A stretch of DNA of 64,000 bases. Source: an uncultured Lentisphaerota bacterium. GTDB lineage: Bacteria; Verrucomicrobiota; Lentisphaeria; Victivallales; UBA1829. The position numbers and the translations under genes are program-made. Where the stretch lies: assembly GCA_900320095.1 (NCBI GenBank), contig ONQZ01000003.1:1-64000 (forward strand), given 5' to 3'. How positions within the stretch are numbered: the first letter of the stretch is position 1; every line of letters starts with the position of its first letter. The notes under the pieces were generated by a model. The model made no database searches and had not been told where the DNA came from. It worked only from the letters and a program-made list of their open reading frames with translations. This document shows positions 1-14,467 of the stretch, in pieces.

Positions 1-556
1 CTACTCCAACATCGCCGATGAGATCGGGCGGGATTCCGTCACGGTCAAACGCTGGGTCTCCATCCTCGAAGCATCCGGCCTTGTTTATCTTCTGGAGCCA
101 TTTGCCAATAGTGCCCTCAAACGGACGACCAAGACCCCGAAGCTTTACTTCCGCGACACGGGGCTGGTTTGCTACCTTACCCGTTGGCTGACTTCGGAAA
201 CGCTTGCCTATGGCGCGATGAGCGGACACATCTTCGAAACATTCGCAGTCTCTGAAATCCTGAAGTCGTTTGCGAACGCCGGACTGGAGTACAAACACTT
301 CGTATCGTTCTACCGGGGACATGGCAGCTCGGAAGAGAAGGAATCCGAGATCGATTTGATTGTCGAGGAGAACGGCATCCTGTACCCGATTGAGATCAAG
401 CAGGGCACAAATGTGAAAGCAACGGAAACTGCGGCATTCCAGATTTTGGATAAAGTCAAATCCTCGAAGCGCGGTCCCGGCGCAATTGTCTGCAACTGTC
501 CTCAACCCGGACGACTTCGGGAAAACGTGCTTCAAATTCCGGTCTGGTACATTTGA
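1..556 (+). CDS. DUF4143-type AAA ATPase, C-terminal part (5' end outside window)
   Basis: The frame is open from base 2 to the TGA at 554-556, so only about the last 184 residues are visible. They hold the winged-helix part (VTVKRWVSILEASGLVYLL), the family signature KTPKLYFRDTGLVCYL, and a PD-(D/E)XK-like C-terminal domain with ESEIDLIVEENGILYPIEIK, which matches the E-x-D-hydrophobic ... E-I-K pattern of DUF4143. The ATPase domain lies upstream of the window. The family is common in free-living bacteria and archaea, and its role is unresolved. It closely resembles the complete gene at 40527-41711. Confidence 0.85.
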   Translation, partial: YSNIADEIGRDSVTVKRWVSILEASGLVYLLEPFANSALKRTTKTPKLYFRDTGLVCYLTRWLTSETLAYGAMSGHIFETFAVSEILKSFANAGLEYKHFVSFYRGHGSSEEKESEIDLIVEENGILYPIEIKQGTNVKATETAAFQILDKVKSSKRGPGAIVCNCPQPGRLRENVLQIPVWYI

Positions 557-629
557 TATCGATTCCGACGGACTGGATTCAGCTTTTCTTCCTGTAGGCT
601 AAAAATCAATTCATGTTCAAATACTGCAC

Positions 630-658
630 CCCCATGCCGGAACCAATCCGGCATGGGG
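630..658. terminator. Perfect hairpin between convergent genes
   Basis: A 12-bp perfect stem (CCCCATGCCGGA at 630-641 and its complement at 647-658) with a 5-nt loop sits between the plus-strand ATPase and the minus-strand helicase. There is no T-run on either side, so termination is inferred from position and symmetry only. Confidence 0.45.
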
Positions 659-689
659 AGGCGAGTTCTTATGTGCCGTTTCTAAGCTC

Positions 690-2807
690 TTATACCCATT
701 GCCGCCAGTACTTGGGGACCAGGTGGTGGACCGTCTCCATTTCGCTTTCGAACAGGTAGCCCTCAACGAGATACTTTTCCGCGAGCGGCGTGAGCACAGG
801 AGCATCGTGTTTGTTGAAGCCGACGCCGTTCACTCTTTTTGTCGCCATTGCGAACCGTTCGTCCGGGTTCTGGTTGCGGTACACGATGAGCAGGTGATCA
901 ATGTCGGGGTCCTCCGTGATCCGCTTTTCGTCGGATTCATCGTCCTGCTCTTCGTCCTCAGGTTCGTTGTCTTTCAACGCTTCATCGATCTCCGCCTCAA
1001 TCTCGGCTTGGAGCTCTTCGTCCATCTCCTCCTCAATCGCATCCATCTCTTCCTCTTCCGTCATTTCCGGCTCGTCACCCTCCGGATCGAGGCCATTCTC
1101 CGGCAACATGAGCGGTTCCATGAACGGGTTTTCCTGATGGTTCTCCAGCTCCGGAACCGAGGCTTGCAGACGCCCCGACTGTTCAATGGCCGGATAGCTT
1201 TGGCTGTTTTCCATTTCCGGGAATGGGGGCTGTAAGCGGACCTGCTGTTCGAAGGGAGGATAGACCTGGCGGTTTTGCGGTGCTCCGGTCGGGATCAACA
1301 GACGTCTCCGGGAAGGCTCTTGACGCGGGATCATCGGAGGAGGAGGCATTGCGCTGTTTCCCCCCTGCAGCTGGGCCAGATACGCCATGATTGCTGATTT
1401 GTACTCCTTCGGAATCGTCAGCGTGACCCCCTCCGGTTTGTGTTCGGGTTTCCGCCCGCCTTCGATGGCGCGATAAAAATCAATGACGGCCTGATCAATG
1501 ATGGAGTCTTCAGGATGAACAGGACGGTCGATCCGGAGGTTTTTGATGGTGCGGCAACGGGAAATCGCGGTATAGAATTGGCCATGAGCAAAACACCCGT
1601 TACCGAGTTTGACCGAAACATAATCCAGGCTCAACCCCTGCGCTTTATGGATTGTTGTCGCGTAGGAGAGTTTGAGCGGCATCTGTACAAACTTTCCAAC
1701 CTCATTTTGACGGATTACCTGCCTGCAGCTGTTTGCATCGTATTCCAGATAATACTCGTATTGACTCCATTCCGCGCGTTGGACCGAAACCGTGGCTCCG
1801 CGATCCAAGCGAACTTGCACCACTGCATCATCACCGTCTTCCACAGCTTCAACGACACCGATTTCACCGTTCACATATTCGATCTCTCCGTCCGGTGTGC
1901 GCTTGTTTGTAAGGGTCATCACTCGGGCTCCAATCTTCAGCGCGAGAGTTTCCGGTGTCGGATAGTCACATTCCTTGAACTTGCCGAACACCGCGGCACG
2001 GAATGTATGCGTCTCGCTTTTGAGCTTGCCGAGACAATGCTGATTGAAAGCATCAGCATCGTAGTTCGTGGTACAGAGGTATACCGGAGTTTGTTCGAGC
2101 GCGGGGGCCTTGACGCAGAGGCGCGTCAGGGCCTCGATTGCGTTCACCGGCTCGTCCTGACCGTCCAGCAGCAGGTCGCGTTTCTCAAGTTCCCCGTAGC
2201 GCAGATGGTTCAGAATCGACAGAAAGAGCACGTCGTTCTGCTGGCGGTGGATGGTCTGCAGGCACATGCAGTGGAAATCCGCCTGGTTCCAGAGCTTTGT
2301 CTGAAAGGCGTAATACCCGCCGAGCGTACGTTGAAGATACGCCGACTCGGGTTCCGTTTTCACCACGGGCGGGAGCTGAAAGAAGTCGCCGACCAGAATG
2401 ATCTGTTTTCCGCCGAACGGTCTGGTATCTTTAGTGACCTCCCGCAGCCTCGCATCAATGGCGGCGAAAAGGTCACTCCGGACCATGGACACCTCGTCGA
2501 TCACGATGGTCTCGACCTGGCGGATGAGGTTAATGCGTTTTTTGCTCCTGAGCTCCTCCATTGAATCCGGGGTAAGCAACCCCGGCTTCAGCTGAAAGAA
2601 GCTGTGCAGGGTCGAGCCGCCGATGTTGATAGCCGCAATCCCGGTCGGGGCCAGGAAAACGCACTCGCGAGTACAAACTTCCTTGAATTTTTGGAGGATC
2701 GTCGACTTGCCCGTTCCGGCTTTCCCGGTCAAAAAAACGTTCTTGCCGGAGAGCATCATGGCCAGGGCCTGCTCTTGTTCATTTGTGAGCTTAATGTCTT
2801 CTTTCAT
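690..2807 (-). CDS. PIF1/RecD-like superfamily 1 DNA helicase
   Basis: This 705-residue protein is an ATP-driven DNA helicase of the PIF1/RecD2 type. Walker A is GKAGTGKST at residues 28-36, Walker B is VIDEVSM at about 102-108, followed by VGDFFQLPPV. The C-terminal helicase motif YATTIHKAQGLSLD and the FYTAISRC box are intact. The last 170 residues add a Pro/Gln-rich linker, a strongly acidic stretch rich in E and D, and a basic/aromatic tail, which is unusual and may bind partners or act as a regulatory tail. I chose the ATG at 2807 over the TTG two codons upstream because it is the first ATG and removes only two residues. Such helicases occur in chromosomes and mobile elements. Here it sits inside the tRNA-Val-bounded region, so a role in element or DNA-fork metabolism is possible but unproven. 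Confidence 0.88.
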   Translation of the reverse strand: MKEDIKLTNEQEQALAMMLSGKNVFLTGKAGTGKSTILQKFKEVCTRECVFLAPTGIAAINIGGSTLHSFFQLKPGLLTPDSMEELRSKKRINLIRQVETIVIDEVSMVRSDLFAAIDARLREVTKDTRPFGGKQIILVGDFFQLPPVVKTEPESAYLQRTLGGYYAFQTKLWNQADFHCMCLQTIHRQQNDVLFLSILNHLRYGELEKRDLLLDGQDEPVNAIEALTRLCVKAPALEQTPVYLCTTNYDADAFNQHCLGKLKSETHTFRAAVFGKFKECDYPTPETLALKIGARVMTLTNKRTPDGEIEYVNGEIGVVEAVEDGDDAVVQVRLDRGATVSVQRAEWSQYEYYLEYDANSCRQVIRQNEVGKFVQMPLKLSYATTIHKAQGLSLDYVSVKLGNGCFAHGQFYTAISRCRTIKNLRIDRPVHPEDSIIDQAVIDFYRAIEGGRKPEHKPEGVTLTIPKEYKSAIMAYLAQLQGGNSAMPPPPMIPRQEPSRRRLLIPTGAPQNRQVYPPFEQQVRLQPPFPEMENSQSYPAIEQSGRLQASVPELENHQENPFMEPLMLPENGLDPEGDEPEMTEEEEMDAIEEEMDEELQAEIEAEIDEALKDNEPEDEEQDDESDEKRITEDPDIDHLLIVYRNQNPDERFAMATKRVNGVGFNKHDAPVLTPLAEKYLVEGYLFESEMETVHHLVPKYWRQWV

Positions 2808-3101
2808 AAGCAAATCACTTTCATTTTGGTTTTATATTGTCATGTGTCTTTCTCGAAGATTCCGAGACCATGCAAACAATATACATCGAAAACAGCAAAA
2901 TGCAAGCAAATCGCTGATTTTGAGTTACTTGTGGCAAATTATAGCGCATTGTTTCCTGATTGGGCGGATTGTAGCATGAAGGCCGGAATTTTTTCGAAAA
3001 AAAGTTATATAAAATCGAGAAAAATGCCGGATACATGGGGTATTTATCCGGCAGATACCTTACCTGGAGCTTCAAACCCTGTTCGCAAAGTTCATTTGCG
3101 T

Positions 3102-3584
3102 TCACCGAGGGCGATGGACGTACGGGTTGACGAGCGGGCTCGACCCGACGAGGTGCGTCGGGGCTACGGGTGTCAGAACGACTGGGCCGAGTTCATAGGA
3201 CGAAGCCTGCCGGGTCACGGTCGTGACCGTACCGTCGCTGTGTGTGGTAACGATTGTAGTGGTCGGAACCGCAACCGGAGCCGTTTTGACGGCAACCGGA
3301 GGTGCTACCATCACAGGAGCCGGGGCAACGATGATTGGCGCAGGAACAGCCCTTGCGGGGGGCACTACGACGATCTGCGTGGAACCGTGGAGCAGCGAAC
3401 CGGCTGCTTCTACAGTGCCGACGACGATGCCTTCGGCAGCAGCAAGCGGCAAAGCCACAATTGCACCAGCCGCTGATGCCAGATCGGCGAGAACACCGGG
3501 CCGTTCGATGACGACAGTCTGTTGGGCGTGAAGCGAGGTGAAGACCAGAAGCCCGAGGATTAGAGCGAGTGTGAGTTTCTTCAT
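3102..3584 (-). CDS. Small secreted Ala/Val/Pro-rich protein of unknown function
   Basis: The 160-residue product begins with a typical signal peptide (MKKLTLALILGLLVFTSLHA, cleavage likely after A-Q). A hydrophobic Ala/Gly-rich segment follows, then a low-complexity stretch of alternating V, A and P, and a Thr/Val/Ser-rich end. I chose the internal ATG at 3584 over the one at 3680 because a GGA-type ribosome-binding site (AAAGGA) lies just upstream and the signal peptide starts there. No conserved domain is recognised. The composition suggests an exported surface or periplasmic protein with a flexible linker. Confidence 0.6.
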   Translation of the reverse strand: MKKLTLALILGLLVFTSLHAQQTVVIERPGVLADLASAAGAIVALPLAAAEGIVVGTVEAAGSLLHGSTQIVVVPPARAVPAPIIVAPAPVMVAPPVAVKTAPVAVPTTTIVTTHSDGTVTTVTRQASSYELGPVVLTPVAPTHLVGSSPLVNPYVHRPR

Positions 3585-3806
3585 TGTGAAGTCCTTTCTT
3601 TTGAGGGTGAATAAGTTTGCAGCGTTTCGTTTTACTGCATTCAAGTTATATATCCTCGAAAAATGACGACCGCCACCCATCTCAACTCACCTCCCGGTGA
3701 AGCCGGATGAAACCTTAAGATTTCGACATGCCCCCTATGACTTGTGGTTTTTTGAGGGGGAAGCCACACCCTATTGATTTTTTTCTCAATTTTTTTTGTT
3801 TTGGAT

Positions 3807-4681: not shown

Positions 4682-4854
4682 GAGTGTTCATGTCTATCAA
4701 AACGGCGTGTGCGTTTGCACATGTCAGCAGATGGACTATGTACCGCTGGATAACCAGCGGTCAAGTCCAGACCATCGGAGACGGCCACGACAAGTCCAGC
4801 CCGATCTACGTTGATGCGGCATCGCTGCAGGCGTTCATGACGGTGACAAAATGA
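4678..4854 (+). CDS. Second small excisionase-like HTH protein
   Basis: This 58-residue reading frame starts at ATG 4678 inside the stop codon of the preceding gene (ATGA overlap), with GGAGGT just upstream, and ends by ATGA overlap into the RepA-like gene. Its sequence (SIKTACAFAHVSRWTMYRW, then a short wing and SPIYVDAASLQAFM) parallels the preceding protein: an HTH with a W-T-x-x-R-W core and a terminal I-x-V/I-(D/N)-x-A-S-(F/L) segment. The two look like a tandem duplication that has diverged, and they may act as a pair on the same DNA sites. Confidence 0.6.
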   Translation: MRVFMSIKTACAFAHVSRWTMYRWITSGQVQTIGDGHDKSSPIYVDAASLQAFMTVTK

Positions 4855-7800
4855 AGGCCGTCGTTGAAAGCAATGCCGTCCGGGGATTATTTCCCCGGAC
4901 GGCTAGCCCAACCACCCTGTCGTGTGAGAGAAACGGACTGCTGTCCACATCCTGCGTCCCGATGCTTTGTGTCGGGACGCTAAAAGCCATCCTCCGGTGG
5001 CATGGTTGCTCCGATCCATTCGTCGATCTAATCGCGGAAGGATACGCGCCTCGTGAGTTCCGCCTCGGGATGACGGAGCTCTGGAAGGTTCGGGATACTT
5101 TCTTCATGTTGGCAAAGGACGCCATCAACCGCTTGAACGGGAGAATCTCCCTCAATGTGATCGACCTGAACGCTATTATGACAGACATCACAGAGGACAA
5201 TCCCTCCAATAGACTGCTTTTTCCTGAAGCTTCGAGCATGATGTGGAATCTCCGGCACTCGGTCGCGGGCAGCTTCATGTGGCCGTCGTTCTGCCCTTCC
5301 TGTGCGACACCGGCTTTTTGGACTTCCTGCCGATTGTTTATTCTGAACTCGATTTGGCGTTTGCATCCGGCGCTGCTTGCCGTCGATTTCTCGACGGGAC
5401 TTGCGGACTTCTCGAACGAGGATTGCGCCCGCATCCAGAAGCTGATCGCCGATGCAATCCAGTCAAGACCGGCCCTGCCGGAATCCACGGCCAGGTGTGA
5501 CGCCGAGATCACTGTCGAAGCTGGAGAATCCGCCCTGACCACTGAAGTCCAGCGATTGCTTGTTATTCTCCAGGACGGACCGAAGAGCCGTCAGGAGCTA
5601 CAAGAGGTGCTGGAGGTGGGACGGACCGCCCTGCTCAAGCGTTTCCTCGATCCGGCACGAGAATCAGGTCTGGTCATGACCACGGAACAAGGCAGCAGCC
5701 CGAAACAGAAGTATATGTTGACGAGCTTAGCCGTTGCGGCAGGCGGAAAACAGGCTCAGCCGGGAAGCGAAACAGGCTTGGCATATCCTGTTTCCACCGA
5801 ACTCGTTCCTCCTCAAAAACAGGCTGACCTCCCGAAAAACGGTGTTTTTTCGCCCGTAGCTGTGTCCGTCGCAGACGGACACGCACCCGTGCGCCTGGCC
5901 CGGTACAACCGTTGGCCAGAGGCGGAAAGAATCCTGATTCTGTTTGGCCGTGTAGAGCGGTTCCTTCGCAGTTCGTTCAAGTCCGGTACGTGGAAGGAGC
6001 TTGGAATCGTCGGCAAGCTTAACGAAAGCGATCTGTTTCGCTTCGGAAACTGCATCTTTTCCCCTCAATACTGGGGTGCCAATGCCGGTGTAGTGCTGGC
6101 GAATGAGGGCGTCGACATTTACGGTAATCGCCGCTTGTGCGCGGTTGGCGAATCGAATCTTCTGTGTCTCTTTGCTCAAAAGGCGGGGTTGAACCTGGTG
6201 ACCTGTTCGGAAACGGAACGAGCTGAGCTGGGAAGACTCGCTATGGTCATCCCGCCCGCCGTGCTCCATTTGACAAATTTCTACGGACAGCGCTTCGGTA
6301 TCTCCGATGACCTCGACAAGCCGTATCATGGAGACAAGAAATCAATGCAGCAAGCCGCGGTCGATCTGTTCAATTTGTATCATCCCGGCATGGCCAAGAT
6401 CGTTTTTCATGGGAAAGACCGGGCTCCGCAGCTTCAGGTGGCCCGCATCGACTTTGATGGTCGAACATTGCTCCTGCCGGTCACGTTCTACGCCTCGGCC
6501 AAGGACCCGATGCCGTGCTGCATGATGCCGGAGGTCCCGGACTCTCCTGCCCTGTACAACGCTGACGCCATCGCCGCGAATCCGGGTGCTACGGTCATCC
6601 TCACCGATGAAATTGGCATCCCGCTCGTCAACGATAACGATAGCGATTTCATCTACTGCTCGTGGTACGGCGGGATGGACGTGATCGACAAGGTCGTCCG
6701 CGAGTTGCCGCCCGATCATCCGTACCAGTGGCTGTGCTTCGACAATGGCGATGGCCCGGCGAAGATGTACGAAAAGGCCGTGACGGTCGGGACGATCTTC
6801 CAGAAACACGGACGCAAGATCGCGTTCCAGGTCTTCGATGGGGTGACATGGACCCGCAACGCCTTCGGTATGGATGCCGGTACATACGAAAGCTCTCGGG
6901 TGCTGTCCTTCGAAGAGCTCAAGGCCGAGGCGTCCAAGTTCGGTGTCAGCAGTTGCGATTCAAATGAGGTCGCCGACCTCCATATCTACACCATGGATGA
7001 GCTGCTCAAACTCAAACCGGAAGAATTCATTCTGGCTCCGGTGTTGATGCCTGGGTTCTATTGCCTTATCTACGGTGGGTCCGGCGTTGCGAAGACCTGG
7101 TTCGCGCTTCATCTCGCCATTTGCCTTAGTCAAAGCCAAGCCCCGTTCAAGCACTGGGAGTTTTGTGGAACGGCTCCGCTCAATGTGCTGTATGTCGCCG
7201 GGGAGATGCGCGAGTCCGAGTATGGCAAACGCTTGAGAAAACTGCTGGCAGACCAGAAAGCCAACCCGCATTTCGGGCTGATCCGGGAAGACCTTGACCT
7301 TACGACCGAGGCGGACCAGGAAACAATTACCAAGGCGGTCAAGGAGCTGAAGAGCAAGGTCGTCGTGCTCGACAATCTGTCCACGCTCGCGACCAACGGC
7401 CATACCGAGGGGCAGTTTGAGAAAATCCTGGGATTCATCCGCAAGCTGCAGGCGGACGGGATCATCGTCCTTCTCGTCCATCACGAGAATCGCGAAGGCG
7501 GCTTCAAAGGTTCCGGCAAGATCGAACTGGTCGCCGACCAGTCGCTGCATCTCTTTTCTGCGGGGAAAGGCGATAAGATTGAACTGCTGGTTCGCGCGGA
7601 AAAAATCCGCATGACCTCCAAAGCCGAACAGGAAGCGTTTCATACGGAATTCGACCCGAAAGATCCGACAACTGTCTGGGAAACAAGACCTCTGAAGCCG
7701 GAAGAATGCCGTCGCCTTGATATCGACGACCCGCTCGGCGAAGTCGAACGGAACGTTGGAAAGAAGCGCAAGAATAACCAGCTGGCATGGAAATACCTGA

Positions 7801-8051
7801 ACGACGATGAACGCGCCATCGCGATTCTCGACGACATGCTCAACGGATGCCTCGACGACGTCATTGCCGCCGACCTCGCCGTGCGTGAATCCGTAATATC
7901 CGATTTCAAGCAGCAATACGGGATTTCGCCGGAGGCACTGGACCTGCATCTCGCCGAGGCCAAAGAAATCGCAAAAAATAATTCAGGAAAAATAACACCG
8001 AATGAGCTTGCGCCGATTCTTTGGAAGCGACTCACAGACAATAAGAAGTAA
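4851..8051 (+). CDS. RepA-like AAA ATPase (plasmid/element replication helicase type)
   Basis: The 1066-residue product ends in a RecA-like ATPase module of the RepA/AAA_25 type. Walker A is YGGSGVAKTW at about residues 741-750, the following segment gives LNVLYVAGEM, and Walker B is VVVLDNLSTLA. The sensor-like VLLVHHENREGGFKGSG and the predicted loop after it also match the family. Before it comes a region with VILTDEIGIP and DFIYCSWYGG that may be Toprim/primase-like, and a winged helix lies at about residues 225-290. The N-terminal 200 residues look poor in this frame, and a short out-of-frame segment at 5290-5395 reads better, so a compensated frameshift is possible. Position between the excisionase-like genes and the integrase suggests a replication protein of the integrated element. 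Confidence 0.75.
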   Translation: MKAVVESNAVRGLFPRTASPTTLSCERNGLLSTSCVPMLCVGTLKAILRWHGCSDPFVDLIAEGYAPREFRLGMTELWKVRDTFFMLAKDAINRLNGRISLNVIDLNAIMTDITEDNPSNRLLFPEASSMMWNLRHSVAGSFMWPSFCPSCATPAFWTSCRLFILNSIWRLHPALLAVDFSTGLADFSNEDCARIQKLIADAIQSRPALPESTARCDAEITVEAGESALTTEVQRLLVILQDGPKSRQELQEVLEVGRTALLKRFLDPARESGLVMTTEQGSSPKQKYMLTSLAVAAGGKQAQPGSETGLAYPVSTELVPPQKQADLPKNGVFSPVAVSVADGHAPVRLARYNRWPEAERILILFGRVERFLRSSFKSGTWKELGIVGKLNESDLFRFGNCIFSPQYWGANAGVVLANEGVDIYGNRRLCAVGESNLLCLFAQKAGLNLVTCSETERAELGRLAMVIPPAVLHLTNFYGQRFGISDDLDKPYHGDKKSMQQAAVDLFNLYHPGMAKIVFHGKDRAPQLQVARIDFDGRTLLLPVTFYASAKDPMPCCMMPEVPDSPALYNADAIAANPGATVILTDEIGIPLVNDNDSDFIYCSWYGGMDVIDKVVRELPPDHPYQWLCFDNGDGPAKMYEKAVTVGTIFQKHGRKIAFQVFDGVTWTRNAFGMDAGTYESSRVLSFEELKAEASKFGVSSCDSNEVADLHIYTMDELLKLKPEEFILAPVLMPGFYCLIYGGSGVAKTWFALHLAICLSQSQAPFKHWEFCGTAPLNVLYVAGEMRESEYGKRLRKLLADQKANPHFGLIREDLDLTTEADQETITKAVKELKSKVVVLDNLSTLATNGHTEGQFEKILGFIRKLQADGIIVLLVHHENREGGFKGSGKIELVADQSLHLFSAGKGDKIELLVRAEKIRMTSKAEQEAFHTEFDPKDPTTVWETRPLKPEECRRLDIDDPLGEVERNVGKKRKNNQLAWKYLNDDERAIAILDDMLNGCLDDVIAADLAVRESVISDFKQQYGISPEALDLHLAEAKEIAKNNSGKITPNELAPILWKRLTDNKK

Positions 8052-8164
8052 TATAAGAATAACGTAACCGGTCGGATACAGATGGCCGGTTATTTTGAAG
8101 CGGAATTATGCCACTTGAAATGCTCGAAAAACCATGTATTGTAAGGAATGGAGGTGGTGCAAAA

Positions 8165-9532
8165 ATGAGCATACGAAACAAAAACGGAATATGGTACTAC
8201 GAATTCATGGCCGAGGGCAAACGGTACTCCGGAACGTGTCTTGATAAGACCGGGGCACCGACCGGAAACGAACGGGTTGCTCAGGCGTATGAGCGAGCAA
8301 AACGAGAGGAGCTCGGGAGTGTCCGCGCAAACAAGTCGTTGAAGGCGCTGGTGGAGAACTACCGCGAGGAGCTGACAGGGTCAAGGGCTATCCCCCTTCG
8401 CGAAGCATACGAGCGTTCCCTTGGAAAGCCCCGGAAGCGCATTCCCGGAGTGGCACGGCAGGCGTTGAAGGCCGCTCACTGGCAGAATTTTCTGGCGTAT
8501 ATGGAGGACGTCTACCCTGAGGTTACTCACCTCGCAGCGGTCTCCCGGCATCATGCGGAAAACTTCGTGGCGAACCTCAGCCTTTACGGGAAATATACGC
8601 CCCGCAAGCCTGGGAAGCGTCGAGAGGCGCATCCTCTTTCCGGCGCGACCATCACGGACCATATCACAACGATCACGGAGGTCTTCTCGTTGCTTGCCGA
8701 TGATGCCGGACTCGTGGGCAATCCGTTCGCCAATATTCCCAAGCCGTCCCTGCAGACCGAGACTCGACAGCCGTTCACGCTTGAAGAGCTGAAGACGATC
8801 AAAGAGAACCTCGACGATTTCACCCGACCGCTGTTCACCATCGCGATTGCCACAGCTCTGCGCGAGGGGGACATCTGCACGCTGAAGTGGAGCGAGATCG
8901 ACCTGACGAACCTCGTCATCCGTAGAGGAAAAATGCGCAAGACGCAAGTCGGCGTGGATATTCCGATCATGCCGCCGTTGGCCGTCTACCTCGAAGAGCT
9001 TTTGGAAAAACGGACGGACAGCGGCGAGTATGCCCAATACGTACTGCCGCTTCATGCTGAAATGTATCTGCATAACCGCAGCGGCGTTTCCTACCGCATC
9101 AAGACTTTTCTGGAAGAGAAGTGCCACATCGTCACCCTAAGCAAGCCCGCAGGCCGTGATCGTGCCGTCTCGGTCAAGGACCTTCACAGCTGTCGTCATA
9201 CGTTCTGTTACTATGCTGGGCTGTACGGAATCCCGATGAACATCGTTCAGGGGATCGTCGGCCACATGACGCCGGAGATGACCAAGCTCTACAGCAATCA
9301 TGCCAGTCTGGAGGCCAAGCGCGAAAAGATGCAGCTTCTGCCCGACTTCCTGAATCTCGCTGATGGAACGAATCCGCATACAATCGGAAACTGCTCGCAG
9401 GACCCGGAAATCCATGATCTCCTGAAACAGCTGCCTCATCAGTATGCCGAAGAGATCAAGCAGATTCTGGAAATCATGATCAAATCCGGTCCGCGAACGG
9501 TCATTGAGCTTCGCCGCCAGCTGACGGGGTGA
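8165..9532 (+). CDS. Tyrosine recombinase/integrase
   Basis: The 455-residue protein integrates and excises DNA through a covalent tyrosine intermediate. The catalytic set is visible: Arg in ATALREGDICTLKW, H-x-x-R in LHSCRHTF, then GHMTPEMTKLYSNH giving the second His and the nucleophile Tyr. An N-terminal arm-binding part (SIRNKNGIWYYEFMAEGKRY) and a SAM-like core-binding domain precede the catalytic domain. I chose ATG 8165 because GGAGGTGG lies upstream; an earlier in-frame ATG at 8108 has no such site. It is the probable integrase of the region that ends in the tRNA-Val fragment at 12995-13044, though that site is 3.5 kb away. Confidence 0.92.
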   Translation: MSIRNKNGIWYYEFMAEGKRYSGTCLDKTGAPTGNERVAQAYERAKREELGSVRANKSLKALVENYREELTGSRAIPLREAYERSLGKPRKRIPGVARQALKAAHWQNFLAYMEDVYPEVTHLAAVSRHHAENFVANLSLYGKYTPRKPGKRREAHPLSGATITDHITTITEVFSLLADDAGLVGNPFANIPKPSLQTETRQPFTLEELKTIKENLDDFTRPLFTIAIATALREGDICTLKWSEIDLTNLVIRRGKMRKTQVGVDIPIMPPLAVYLEELLEKRTDSGEYAQYVLPLHAEMYLHNRSGVSYRIKTFLEEKCHIVTLSKPAGRDRAVSVKDLHSCRHTFCYYAGLYGIPMNIVQGIVGHMTPEMTKLYSNHASLEAKREKMQLLPDFLNLADGTNPHTIGNCSQDPEIHDLLKQLPHQYAEEIKQILEIMIKSGPRTVIELRRQLTG

Positions 9533-9720: not shown

Positions 9721-9820
9721 GTATTGTCTCCAAGTCGGCATGCAGTATTCTGTCTTTATTCTGTCTTGATAGGAAACCAACATTATTTATAATTGGCAGA
9801 GATTTCTTGCCAATTTTTAC

Positions 9821-9848
9821 TTGAAATGGTGAGATCATGTGCTATATT
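9821..9848 (+). promoter_or_regulatory. Promoter of the DUF4143 ATPase gene
   Basis: TTGAAA at 9821-9826 and TATATT at 9843-9848 are 16 bp apart. The transcript would start about 15 bp before the start codon at 9871, leaving just room for the ribosome-binding site. Confidence 0.6.
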
Positions 9849-9870
9849 AAGATTAAAGGAGGCAACCATC

Positions 9871-11193
9871 ATGGAAAAAACTCTGCTCAAAAACACACTT
9901 CGCGAACTGTTTTCCGACTTTTATGAAACACCGATTCCGGAGCTGACCCGTCGTCAGATAGACATCCCGGAAGCGCCGCGTTTCGCTACGGTCATCCTGG
10001 GCATGCGTCGAACGGGGAAAACATTCCTGCTCTATCAGCGCATGAACGATCTCCTGTCGTCCGGTATCCCGAAAGACAGAATATTGCACGTCAACTTCGA
10101 GGACGACCGTCTGATGGGCATCACGGCGGAAGATCTCAGGTATGTGCCGGAGGTCTACTACCAGATGTACCCGGACAATCATGGCAAGCGCTGTTATTTC
10201 TTCTTTGACGAGATACAGAATATCGAACACTGGGAAACCTTTGTCCGGCGCATGGTCGATACGAGCAACGTTCAGGTTTATCTTTCCGGTTCTTCAGCGA
10301 AACTTCTCTCCAAGGAAATCGCTACAGCAATGCGCGGTCGATCCATCGAAATCGAGAATCTCCCGCTTTCCTTCGAGGAGTTCCTGATCCACCACAAGGT
10401 TTTCAAGGCAATCCCGAAAAACATCAGCAGTACTGCCCGAAGCAAGATACAAAATGCGATAGAGAAGTATTTCACCATCGGCGGGATGCCCGCCGTGCAG
10501 GAAATGAACGACACGCTCCGCGCATCCATTCTGCAGGGGTATGTGAACACGGTGATCTACAGGGACGTGGTGGAACGCCATGAAATATCCAATTCTCAGG
10601 CGCTGAAGTTCACCATGCAGATGGTGTTCAACAATCCCGCCCGACAGCTCAGCACACGAAAAATAGCAGACAGCCTCAAAAGCCAACAGATAACGGTAAG
10701 CCGGGAGATGGTATCCGACTATCTGGACTGGCTTGCCGATGCTTACCTCCTGCACAAGGTGGAACTGCATACCGAATCTGTGGCGAAGCGTCGCGTCAAT
10801 CCGGCCAAGTATTACCTGAACGACATCGGCATCATCCGGGCTATGCGTATCAAACACGCCCTCGATTTGGGACCGCTTCTGGAGAATCTTGTGTATCTCC
10901 ATCTGCGACGCCTGGGATATCAGATGGAGTATGTTCTTACCGGAGATGGCTCCGAGGTTGATTTCCTCGCATTCCGGCCTATGCAGGAGTCCAAGCTGAT
11001 CCAGGTCTGCTTCGATATGAGCAATCCGAAGACGTTTGAACGTGAGGTCTCGGCGTTGACAGATGCTGCCAAAGCCCTTGGCGTGAAGAAGCGCTGTATC
11101 GTTACATGGGATGATGAAGACGAGCTGCCTGGAAATATCCAAGTCATTCCTGTGTGGAAATTCCTTCTGAACAATGTTTCACCCTATGTTTGA
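9871..11193 (+). CDS. DUF4143-type AAA ATPase
   Basis: The 440-residue protein combines an AAA domain (Walker A GMRRTGKT at residues 44-51, Walker B FFFDEIQNIEHWE) with a central winged helix and a nuclease-fold C-terminal domain (GSEVDFLAF, then IQVCFD). In this copy the usual E-I-K is replaced by I-Q-V, so nuclease activity is doubtful. I chose the ATG at 9871 because AAAGGAGG sits 8 bp upstream; the longer TTG start at 9793 does not. The gene is bracketed by direct repeats and lies between the integrase and the tRNA-Val scar, so it is probably cargo of the mobile region. The family's function is not established; roles in toxin control or DNA repair are guesses. Confidence 0.9.
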   Translation: MEKTLLKNTLRELFSDFYETPIPELTRRQIDIPEAPRFATVILGMRRTGKTFLLYQRMNDLLSSGIPKDRILHVNFEDDRLMGITAEDLRYVPEVYYQMYPDNHGKRCYFFFDEIQNIEHWETFVRRMVDTSNVQVYLSGSSAKLLSKEIATAMRGRSIEIENLPLSFEEFLIHHKVFKAIPKNISSTARSKIQNAIEKYFTIGGMPAVQEMNDTLRASILQGYVNTVIYRDVVERHEISNSQALKFTMQMVFNNPARQLSTRKIADSLKSQQITVSREMVSDYLDWLADAYLLHKVELHTESVAKRRVNPAKYYLNDIGIIRAMRIKHALDLGPLLENLVYLHLRRLGYQMEYVLTGDGSEVDFLAFRPMQESKLIQVCFDMSNPKTFEREVSALTDAAKALGVKKRCIVTWDDEDELPGNIQVIPVWKFLLNNVSPYV

Positions 11194-11490: not shown

Positions 11491-12810
11491 ATGATTGTTG
11501 AGCTGAAACTGAAAAACTGGACATCATTCCGTGATGAAACGACATTCTCTCTTGCTGCAACCGATGAGCGACGTTTGAAAGCCAGAATACCTCGGATTCG
11601 CAAGAATCCAGCCCTATCGGTTCTGCCTGTATCGGTTCTTTATGGCGGTAATGCATCCGGTAAAACCAATTTATTCTCGCTTCTGGCATTTCTTCAGAGC
11701 ATGATTGTTGCTCCCCTGCACGAGGACGGCAAGGAAATCCCGCTGGATGTGTTTCTGCTGGCCCCTGAAAGCCAGAAACGGGCAACGGAAATCTCCTTGT
11801 CTTTTCTCGCAGCAGACGATAAGATTTACACCTTTGAATTGCATTTGAACAGAAAAGAGATTCTGAAAGAGTCTCTTTCCGTAGTAAAACGTCAGGGCAG
11901 GTATCAGCTTTTCTCTCGACAGAACGGGCGTATTGCGCTGACAGATCGGTCATTACAGAAAGACAAGGATTCTGTTGCTTTTGCACGGATTATCCAGCAC
12001 AATCAATCTTTCCTCGGGATTGCTGGTAATAAGGTCAAATCTCTGCATTATGCCTATCGGTGGTTCCGGAATCAACTGTCTCTGATCAACACCCGGTCTC
12101 TGTTCCAAGGCTTCCGGGATATGTTCGTTTCAGCACCTTCGGATGTTGAGCATCTCTCCCAGATTCTGAAACAGCTTGACACGGGAATCTGTCGCCTGGA
12201 ATTGGAGGATTCCACGTTTGCAGCTATCCCCCCCAACATGTTTTCTGAATCCGACTTCAAAACCAAGCTCAACAATGGAGAAGTCGTTGAACTCAATGTG
12301 AGGGGACTGCGTTATATTGTCAGGAAGGATGATGACAGGATTTCGGTTAAAAAAATGGTCTCCTACCATCAGAACGCCGATGGGAAGCAAGTGAAATTTG
12401 AACTGAGCAATGAATCGGAAGGTTCCTTGAGACTCCTTGACATCCTTCCGGCCTTTATTGAACTGGAAAAAAACGATTCTCGCAAGGTTTACGTCATAGA
12501 TGAACTGGATCGCAGTTGGCACTATACGCTTTCTCAGCGATTGCTCGGGATTTATCTCTCGCACTGTTCGCCTCAATCCAGATCGCAGCTTTTGTTTTCA
12601 ACACAAGATCTCATGCTGATGGACCAGGATATTTTCCGTCGGGATGAAATCTGGTTCGTTGAACGTAACACTTGCGGAGTTTCTAAGCTGTTTCCGATGT
12701 CTGCTTTCGATATACGCTACGACAAGGATATTCGAAAGCTGTACCTACAGGGGGCTATCGGAGGAATACCACAATTGGCTGTATTCGGACAGCCAGATCA
12801 AGGGAACTAA
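11491..12810 (+). CDS. AAA family ATPase of the COG1106/RloA type
   Basis: The 439-residue protein has the layout of COG1106 ATPases: an N-terminal beta strand LKLKNWTSFRDETTFSL, Walker A YGGNASGKTN at about residues 51-60, a long middle insert, a signature region LSNESEGSLRLL, and Walker B VYVIDELDRSWHY, followed by LLFSTQDLMLMD. Relatives occur with RloB-type or other nucleases in phage-defence loci, and some act alone. No nuclease gene is adjacent here. It is preceded by GAAAAGAGG as ribosome-binding site. Its position as the last gene before the integration scar fits a cargo or defence role, which is inference. Confidence 0.8.
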   Translation: MIVELKLKNWTSFRDETTFSLAATDERRLKARIPRIRKNPALSVLPVSVLYGGNASGKTNLFSLLAFLQSMIVAPLHEDGKEIPLDVFLLAPESQKRATEISLSFLAADDKIYTFELHLNRKEILKESLSVVKRQGRYQLFSRQNGRIALTDRSLQKDKDSVAFARIIQHNQSFLGIAGNKVKSLHYAYRWFRNQLSLINTRSLFQGFRDMFVSAPSDVEHLSQILKQLDTGICRLELEDSTFAAIPPNMFSESDFKTKLNNGEVVELNVRGLRYIVRKDDDRISVKKMVSYHQNADGKQVKFELSNESEGSLRLLDILPAFIELEKNDSRKVYVIDELDRSWHYTLSQRLLGIYLSHCSPQSRSQLLFSTQDLMLMDQDIFRRDEIWFVERNTCGVSKLFPMSAFDIRYDKDIRKLYLQGAIGGIPQLAVFGQPDQGN

Positions 12811-12940
12811 AGTTAATGGGGCTTAAAACTGGGCATGGATCAAAGATGATGAGACGGGTTACGCGCGCACATGCGGCTACAACGCGCACCATGCAACAAC
12901 AACACACAAAGCACCCCATAAAGCTATATTTGAGGAGAGA

Positions 12941-12962
12941 TTACGGAAAAATTACGTAAAAA
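12941..12962. repeat. Tandem TTACGNAAAAA motifs near the att site
   Basis: TTACGGAAAAA at 12941-12951 is followed directly by TTACGTAAAAA at 12952-12962, about 40 bp left of the tRNA-Val fragment. Short direct repeats at this distance from a core site are typical of integrase arm-type sites. The rest of 12811-12994 contains no gene that I can recognise. Confidence 0.4.
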
Positions 12963-12994
12963 ATCTATAACCAATTGGAAATCAATGCAGACTC

Positions 12995-13044
12995 CCACAT
13001 TGACATCGTGGAGGTCGTAGATTCGAGTTCTACTACGCCCACCA
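12995..13044 (+). other. 3' half of tRNA-Val(GAC): right attachment site of the integrated region
   Basis: Reading back from ACCA at 13041-13044, the parts fit a class I tRNA: acceptor strand TACGCCC, T arm GTAGA-TTCGAGT-TCTAC, variable loop AGGTC, and an anticodon arm with loop TTGACAT, which carries anticodon GAC. The 5' acceptor strand and the D arm are absent upstream. The anticodon stem shows one A-C mismatch (12999 with 13007) at the edge of the loop, as expected if the recombination crossover lies in the anticodon loop. A Rho-independent terminator follows, so the right side is the original chromosomal tRNA end. Confidence 0.8.
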
Positions 13045-13060
13045 TTTTTGTATCATGTCA

Positions 13061-13098
13061 AGCCGCTGGAAACGAACAGGTTTCCGGCGGTTTTTTTT
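13061..13098 (+). terminator. Rho-independent terminator of the former tRNA-Val gene
   Basis: CCGCTGGAAAC pairs over 11 bp (one T-G wobble) with GTTTCCGGCGG across a GAACAG loop, followed by eight T residues. Confidence 0.85.
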
Positions 13099-13258: not shown

Positions 13259-14467
13259 ATGAAAATTCTCGTGATCAACTCCGGCAGCTCCTCCCTCAAA
13301 TTCACCCTCTTCGAGATGGATGGCGGCAGCAACACCGTCATCGCATCCGGCCTCGTGGAGCGTGTCGGCACCCCGACTCCGAACCTCATCATCAAGCGTC
13401 CGGACGGTTTCAAGTTCGAAGAATCCCCCGAAGGCGTGAAGAACCACTCCGACGGTCTCCGCGCGGTCTGCGCCAAGCTCGTCGATCCCCAGATCGGCGT
13501 CCTGAAGAGCCTGTCCGAAGTCAAGGCGATCGGCCACCGCGTGCTCCACGGCGGCGAAAAGATCACCGCCCCGGTCAAGGTCGACGCCGAGGTCAAGGAC
13601 ATCATCCGCGAGTGCATCCCGCTGGGACCGCTCCACAACCCCGCCAACCTCAGCGGCATCGAAGCCTGCGAAGAGATCTTCGCAGGCGTCCCGAACGTGG
13701 CGGTCTTCGACACGCAGTTCCACCAGACCATGCCCCCGGAGGCCTACCTCTACGCCATCCCGATGGAGTTCTACAAGAAGTACGGCATCCGCAAGTACGG
13801 GTTCCACGGCACCAGCCACCGTTTCGTGACCCTCTCCACCGCCGAATTCCTCGGCAAGAAGCCTGAAGACATCACGATCATCACCTGCCACCTCGGCAAC
13901 GGCTGCAGCATGGCCGCCGTCAAGAACGGCAAGGTCATTGACACCACCATGGGCCTCACCCCGCTCGAGGGCCTCATGATGGGCACCCGCAGCGGCGACA
14001 TGGATCCCGCCGCCGTGCTCCGCATGGTCCAGGTCGGCAACACCGCCCAGGACGTCGACACCATCCTGAACAAGAAGTCCGGCCTGCTCGCCATCGGCGG
14101 CATCGGCAGCGGCGACATGCGTGACATCGTGAACGCCGCCGACTCCGGCAACAAGGACGCCGCCCTCGCCCTCAAGATGTTCATCCGCCGCATCGTCAAG
14201 TACATCGGCTCCTACTACGTGCTCCTCGGCGGCGCGGACGCCATCGTCTTCACCGGCGGCATCGGCGAACACTCCATCCCGGAACGCAAGGCGATCCTCG
14301 ATGGCATCGCCTGCCTCGGCATCAAGTGCGACGACGCGAAGAACAACGAATGCTTCGGCAAGGCGGGCGTCATCTCCACCGACGACAGCGCCTGGAAGGC
14401 CATCGTCATGCCCACCAACGAAGAGCTGATGATCGCCCTCGAGACCGTCAAGACCCTCGGCCTCTGA
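13259..14467 (+). CDS. ackA: Acetate kinase
   Basis: The 402-residue enzyme transfers phosphate between ATP and acetate in the Pta-AckA pathway, which yields ATP during fermentation. It opens with the ASKHA phosphate-binding motif LVINSGSSSLKF. HRVLHGGEKI, the FHQTMP segment, KYGFHGTSH, CHLGNGCSMAAV, GTRSGDMDP and FTGGIGEHS are all family signatures in the right order. I chose ATG 13259 because the product then matches the usual length of about 400 residues and AAAGGA lies upstream; longer in-frame starts would place the tRNA terminator within the gene. No pta gene is adjacent. It is the first chromosomal gene beyond the integration scar. Confidence 0.97.
   Translation: MKILVINSGSSSLKFTLFEMDGGSNTVIASGLVERVGTPTPNLIIKRPDGFKFEESPEGVKNHSDGLRAVCAKLVDPQIGVLKSLSEVKAIGHRVLHGGEKITAPVKVDAEVKDIIRECIPLGPLHNPANLSGIEACEEIFAGVPNVAVFDTQFHQTMPPEAYLYAIPMEFYKKYGIRKYGFHGTSHRFVTLSTAEFLGKKPEDITIITCHLGNGCSMAAVKNGKVIDTTMGLTPLEGLMMGTRSGDMDPAAVLRMVQVGNTAQDVDTILNKKSGLLAIGGIGSGDMRDIVNAADSGNKDAALALKMFIRRIVKYIGSYYVLLGGADAIVFTGGIGEHSIPERKAILDGIACLGIKCDDAKNNECFGKAGVISTDDSAWKAIVMPTNEELMIALETVKTLGL

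Follow-up and report, generated by a model that had tools for sequence, protein, structure and literature searches.

A displaced tRNA-Val(GAC) 3′ half in front of ackA as the right attachment site of an integrative element in an uncultured Lentisphaerota bacterium

The partial tRNA gene that precedes ackA in the window (the whole stretch of DNA analysed, 64,000 nucleotides) is almost certainly the right attachment site, attR, of an integrative mobile element inserted in tRNA-Val(GAC) between thiN and ackA. Here we describe both ends of the element, their 49-bp common core, the arm-type repeats at both ends, an empty site in a congener and a complete homologous element in another; the exact positions of strand exchange are inferred, and the element may still be mobile. 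In this reading, attP carries a 3′ half of tRNA-Val(GAC) with a terminator (predicted to read CCCACATTGACATCGTGG joined to the terminator now seen at the left end, attL), and the tyrosine integrase of the element recombined it with the host copy of tRNA-Val(GAC) at its anticodon stem-loop. Restored by the imported 3′ half, the tRNA stands at the left end, on contig C41; the original host 3′ half moved with its terminator to the right end, before ackA. The window lies on contig C37 of a 2.75-Mb genome in 80 contigs (G000), one of 13 genomes of the genus that were compared.

Positions 12995–13044 read CCACA TTGACAT CGTGG AGGTC GTAGATTCGAGTTCTAC TACGCCCACCA, supplying the anticodon stem-loop, variable loop, T arm, 3′ acceptor strand and CCA of tRNA-Val(GAC), with the 5′ half absent. 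ARAGORN makes no tRNA call in the window, and the Rfam tRNA model matches below threshold (12979–13033, plus strand; 20.8 bits against a gathering score of 29), as expected where only half a tRNA remains. A search of the genome gave a sole strong partner, C41:66340-66442, matching positions 12995–13098 (84% over 103 bp, E = 1e-24). The exact common block, window 13000–13048, spans 49 bp, starting at the first anticodon-loop base and ending with the TTTT after CCA, and the first-pass annotation, which had read the scar as a 3′ half of tRNA-Val(GAC) without its 5′ half, was correct to the base. The mismatch it had noticed just left of the loop is equally real: the scar has CCACA for the CCACG of the intact tRNA, with four of the five stem bases matching. 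A 49-bp identity followed by a similar terminator in the correct order is far beyond chance, and the crossover would lie in or beside the 7-bp anticodon loop (13000–13006). GC content is 45–57% left of 13,000 and 58–64% right of it, a step at about 13 kb, and ackA is 88–98% identical to the whole copies of congeners. The features of this region are listed in Table 1.

Table 1 Features of the element and its right flank in the window
Feature	Position	Strand	Basis
3′ part of AAA_14-DUF4143 gene, 5′ part beyond contig start	2..556	+	PF13635, E = 1.1e-30
PIF1/Dda-like helicase	690..2813	−	PF05970, E = 6e-34; phrog_325, E = 8.7e-89
Small protein, signal-like N terminus (MKKLTLALILGLLVFTSLHAQQTVVIERPG...), backbone	3102..3590	−	73.5% DNA identity to G009 element copy
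AAA_25/KaiC (RepA-like) helicase-ATPase, backbone	4851..8051	+	PF13481, E = 5.6e-18; homologous stretch in G009 element
Tyrosine integrase, 474 aa	8108..9532	+	PF00589, E = 7e-15; phrog_1, E = 4.5e-40
Cargo AAA_14-DUF4143 ATPase, PADLOC candidate defence family PDC-S01	9793..11193	+	PDLC04787, E = 1.3e-113; Pfam AAA_14/DUF4143
Cargo AAA_21 ATPase, AbiLi-like (abortive infection)	11491..12810	+	PDLC02335 AbiLi, E = 3.2e-70; PF13304
Tandem 11-bp repeat ATTACGGAAAA ATTACGTAAAA, candidate integrase arm sites at attR	12940..12961	+	17-bp core, offset shared with sister elements
Element-side left half of core site (CCACA)	12995..12999	+	attL/attR comparison
Displaced 3′ part of tRNA-Val(GAC), TTGACAT loop to CCA, attR core	13000..13044	+	Identity to C41:66313-66389
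Original tRNA-Val terminator	13045..13098	+	Hairpin 13063–13090, T-run 13091–13098
ackA (acetate kinase), chromosomal right flank	13259..14467	+	PF00871, E = 1e-144

The intact partner, the only tRNA with a GAC anticodon detected in the genome, lies on the plus strand at C41:66313-66389, adjoined on its left by thiN (thiamin pyrophosphokinase, PF04263), and the contig ends 2.3 kb past it. To its right follow, in order, a terminator, an ATTACGG-type repeat pair, an XRE-like helix-turn-helix remnant and a D5/DUF5906 helicase-primase gene (L039:7269-8699; PF19263, E = 1.6e-13; phrog_864 DNA primase, E = 7e-47). An intact plus-strand tRNA-Val(GAC) upstream, followed by the same 30–50 bp, had been predicted for a scar of this kind, and C41 supplies it, with 49 bp shared and mobile genes after.

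The two ends are further tied by the 17-bp arm-type repeat ATTACGGAAAAATTACG, present in exactly two copies in the 2.75-Mb genome, each close to one end of the element and both oriented alike: window 12940–12956 precedes the 49-bp block by 43 bp, and C41:66505-66521 starts 116 bp past the intact tRNA. Each copy opens a tandem of two 11-bp units. Lambda-type tyrosine integrases have arm sites arranged in tandem to either side of the core. The tandem units of about 11 bp seen here match that arrangement, and the integrase of the element probably binds them. They differ in being recognized from sequence and in that the unit sequence varies between elements while its position is kept.

An empty site, with ackA beside tRNA-Val, had been anticipated in related genomes and is found in G010, in which thiN, tRNA-Val(GAC), the terminator and ackA follow one another without an insert. 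Joined at the loop, the left flank from C41 and the right flank from the window give one end-to-end alignment of 1,249 bp (86%) to this site; the uncut left and right ends align to it only up to the tRNA region. The terminators indicate which tRNA half is which. Those after the intact tRNA at attL are 97–100% alike in G000, G002 and G009, but only 67–68% like the scar terminators, which are 91% alike between G000 and G009 and 79–81% like the empty-site terminator of G010. The right-hand terminator of the window, held from the start to be the tRNA's own, is thus nearest to the G009 scar (91%) and the G010 native terminator (79%) and unlike that at attL (67%). From these likenesses, the element brought a 3′ tRNA half with its terminator, leaving the host's own orphaned before ackA. 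We rejected the attL terminator as an element-specific sequence, as the native tRNA-Val terminator of G007, beside which no element is seen, is 95% identical to it; this suggests capture from a former host of the G007 kind.

In G000 the two ends of the element lie on separate contigs, C41 and C37. The assembly breaks at the start of C37 because window 1–697, the DUF4143 gene region, recurs with 91% identity where contig C40 ends (C40:63722-64418); C37 and C40 break at the same point in this repeat, and the left edge of the window is accordingly an assembly break. The C40 end was considered as the missing left part of the element and rejected, since the second DUF4143 copy has chromosomal-type genes behind it.

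The gap is bridged by a complete sister element in G009 (CACYHQ010000002, rumen MAG RUG11954). There, a single contig (G009:C2) carries thiN, an intact tRNA-Val(GAC), about 5.4 kb of inserted DNA, a 3′ tRNA-Val scar and ackA, the insert being ordered attL, D5, a small secreted-like protein, an AAA_25 fragment, integrase and attR, with an integrase 76% identical to that of the window. Four stretches of this element recur in the same order on the tail of C41 and in the window, which points to the same backbone plus extra genes in G000, namely the DUF4143 gene, the PIF1 helicase and the two cargo ATPases; the element is thus probably continuous across the gap between C41 and C37. The small protein is kept in place and on the minus strand in both (L118:3635-4108 in the G009 element); neither copy has a Pfam match, and the window copy has no PHROG match. 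The earlier proposal that an imported region longer than 13 kb lies left of the scar is backed by the matching arm sites, by the G009 gene order and by the GC step. We also note a 4.4-kb contig binned as Coriobacteriaceae RUG14206 (CADBQL010000263.1) that carries an AAA_25-integrase pair with 79% DNA identity to window 5369–8626; either the host range is wide or this contig was mis-binned.

The contig gap would also accommodate two elements in tandem at tRNA-Val, the C41 end deriving from one and the 13 kb of the window from another with its own left arm in the gap. More than one integration event is indeed recorded in G002, in which attL (C52) and the ackA scar (C26) have unlike arms and a further scar lies on C40, and these unmatched arms show that elements accrete, or have their arms replaced, at the tRNA-Val site. 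In G000, however, the C41 and window ends share one 17-mer found nowhere else in the genome, and D5 on C41 together with AAA_25 and the integrase in the window make up the backbone of the single complete G009 element, such that we regard a tandem arrangement as improbable and favour one element spanning the gap. Two further observations concern G002. Its second tRNA-Val(GAC) 3′ scar (C40; L120:7201-7250) adjoins an ABC-F ATPase gene and not ackA, which implies either integration into a tRNA-Val copy elsewhere or rearrangement of the region. Its element ends on C52 and C26 encode repetitive adhesin-like proteins of very great length, 2,580 aa in one case, and carry a sigma-factor-like and a kinase-like gene, all adjoining the arm repeats that are unmatched between these two ends.

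A scar of this kind could in principle be a decayed or duplicated tRNA pseudogene, produced by ordinary duplication or deletion and unrelated to the mobile genes: partial tRNA copies are known from prokaryotic genomes (PMC9897764), and the tRNA-Val cassette sits at different loci among congeners. The breakpoint, however, falls exactly at the anticodon loop, the intact partner has mobile genes adjoining it, G010 retains the empty site and in G009 the same scar accompanies another, complete element. The empty site and this complete sister element led us to reject a pseudogene origin, which we consider very improbable, in favour of integration. With respect to the tRNA-Val loci themselves, a cassette of ~215 bp comprising promoter, tRNA-Val(GAC) and terminator is found by tRNA-Leu(TAG) in G006 and G011, by tRNA-Ser(GGA) in G008 and elsewhere in G007, and in G005, G006, G008 and G011 thiN directly adjoins ackA, with no tRNA-Val between them; the tRNA-Val gene itself seems to have moved among congeners.

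The integrase retains the R/H-R-H-Y residues R252, H360, R363, H386 and Y395, which are conserved in its relatives. No structural PHROG was found in the scanned open reading frames of the window, and the complete G009 element likewise has no capsid, terminase or portal genes; among the element genes scanned on C41 and in the window, Pfam gave no relaxase or type IV secretion gene. The interval between integrase and attR holds two candidate defence genes in G000, for the PDC-S01 ATPase and the AbiLi-like ATPase. In G009:C2 the same interval is empty, in G002:C40 it holds a PDC-S01 gene, and in G002:C26 and G009:C8 it holds AlbA_2-type genes; on this comparison of gene content it behaves as an exchangeable slot.

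Where relatives of this integrase occur in the genus or the family, the partial tRNAs beside them all begin at the anticodon stem-loop (tRNA position 26–33) and run 3′-ward. They comprise 3′ fragments of Val(GAC) in G000, G009 and, twice, G002; of Ala(CGC) in G009; of Arg(CCT) in G008, G010 and G011; of Thr(TGT) in G006, in which the intact tRNA-Thr is 7.9 kb away and both ends lie on one contig (G006:C73); and of Arg(TCT) and Ala(GGC) in other genera. By a strict test, a tandem pair of 10–11-bp units lies 50–64 bp left of the fragment at 11 of 13 sites (chance, 0.35% per random point), although the near-identical sites of G010 and G011, and likewise those of G032 and G033, are not independent within the 13; the remaining two (G009 Val and G002 C40) have looser pairs in the same place. 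The sequence of the arm units differs among elements and agrees between both ends of one element (G000, G009 and G006). The integrase associated with Ala(CGC) in G009 is without its first ~85 residues and its element may be decayed; some related integrases have no tRNA fragment in the stretch examined, many of them near contig ends. At the sensitivity used, viral contigs yielded no relative of the integrase, and integrases in the phage collection are only 22–28% identical to those of this clade, on which grounds a known phage was dropped as the identity of the element. Taken as a whole, these sites raise the tentative possibility that one integrase clade in this bacterial family switches between target tRNAs from relative to relative (Val-GAC, Ala-CGC, Ala-GGC, Arg-CCT, Arg-TCT and Thr-TGT) while keeping the crossover in the anticodon stem-loop and an arm-pair offset of ~50–64 bp, with the arm sequence drifting in step at both ends and the integrase-attR interval serving as an exchangeable defence-gene slot.

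The Islander database contains 3,760 islands with 3′ tDNA fragments and 2,083 with an anticodon-centred attP (sublocation class A) (PMC4383910). Those anticodon-centred islands share with the present element a tyrosine integrase, a regenerated tRNA at one end and a displaced 3′ fragment at the other; the element differs in that its hosts are a family of uncultured bacteria and that its clade of integrases is so distant (22–28%) from phage-collection ones. Restoration of the tRNA with displacement of a 3′ fragment is a textbook principle, of which the element is a well-documented further case. P4-like satellites have a variable slot for defence genes between psu and int (Rousset et al. 2022, PMC9122126), and share with the present element a helicase-primase of the D5/P4-alpha type, a tyrosine integrase that targets tRNA genes and, next to it, a changing set of genes with a candidate role in defence. 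The slot described here, in contrast, lies between integrase and attR. No psu, sid, delta or cos stands out in the 5.4-kb G009 element, no capsid-size gene was noticed, and we do not claim membership of the P4 group.

Collectively, these results place the right-hand limit of imported DNA in an uncultured lineage at an exact position, supply its two att sites together with candidate arm sites, and link two candidate anti-phage genes with a mobile carrier. Related integrases that use different target tRNAs provide a natural series for studying the evolution of target choice.
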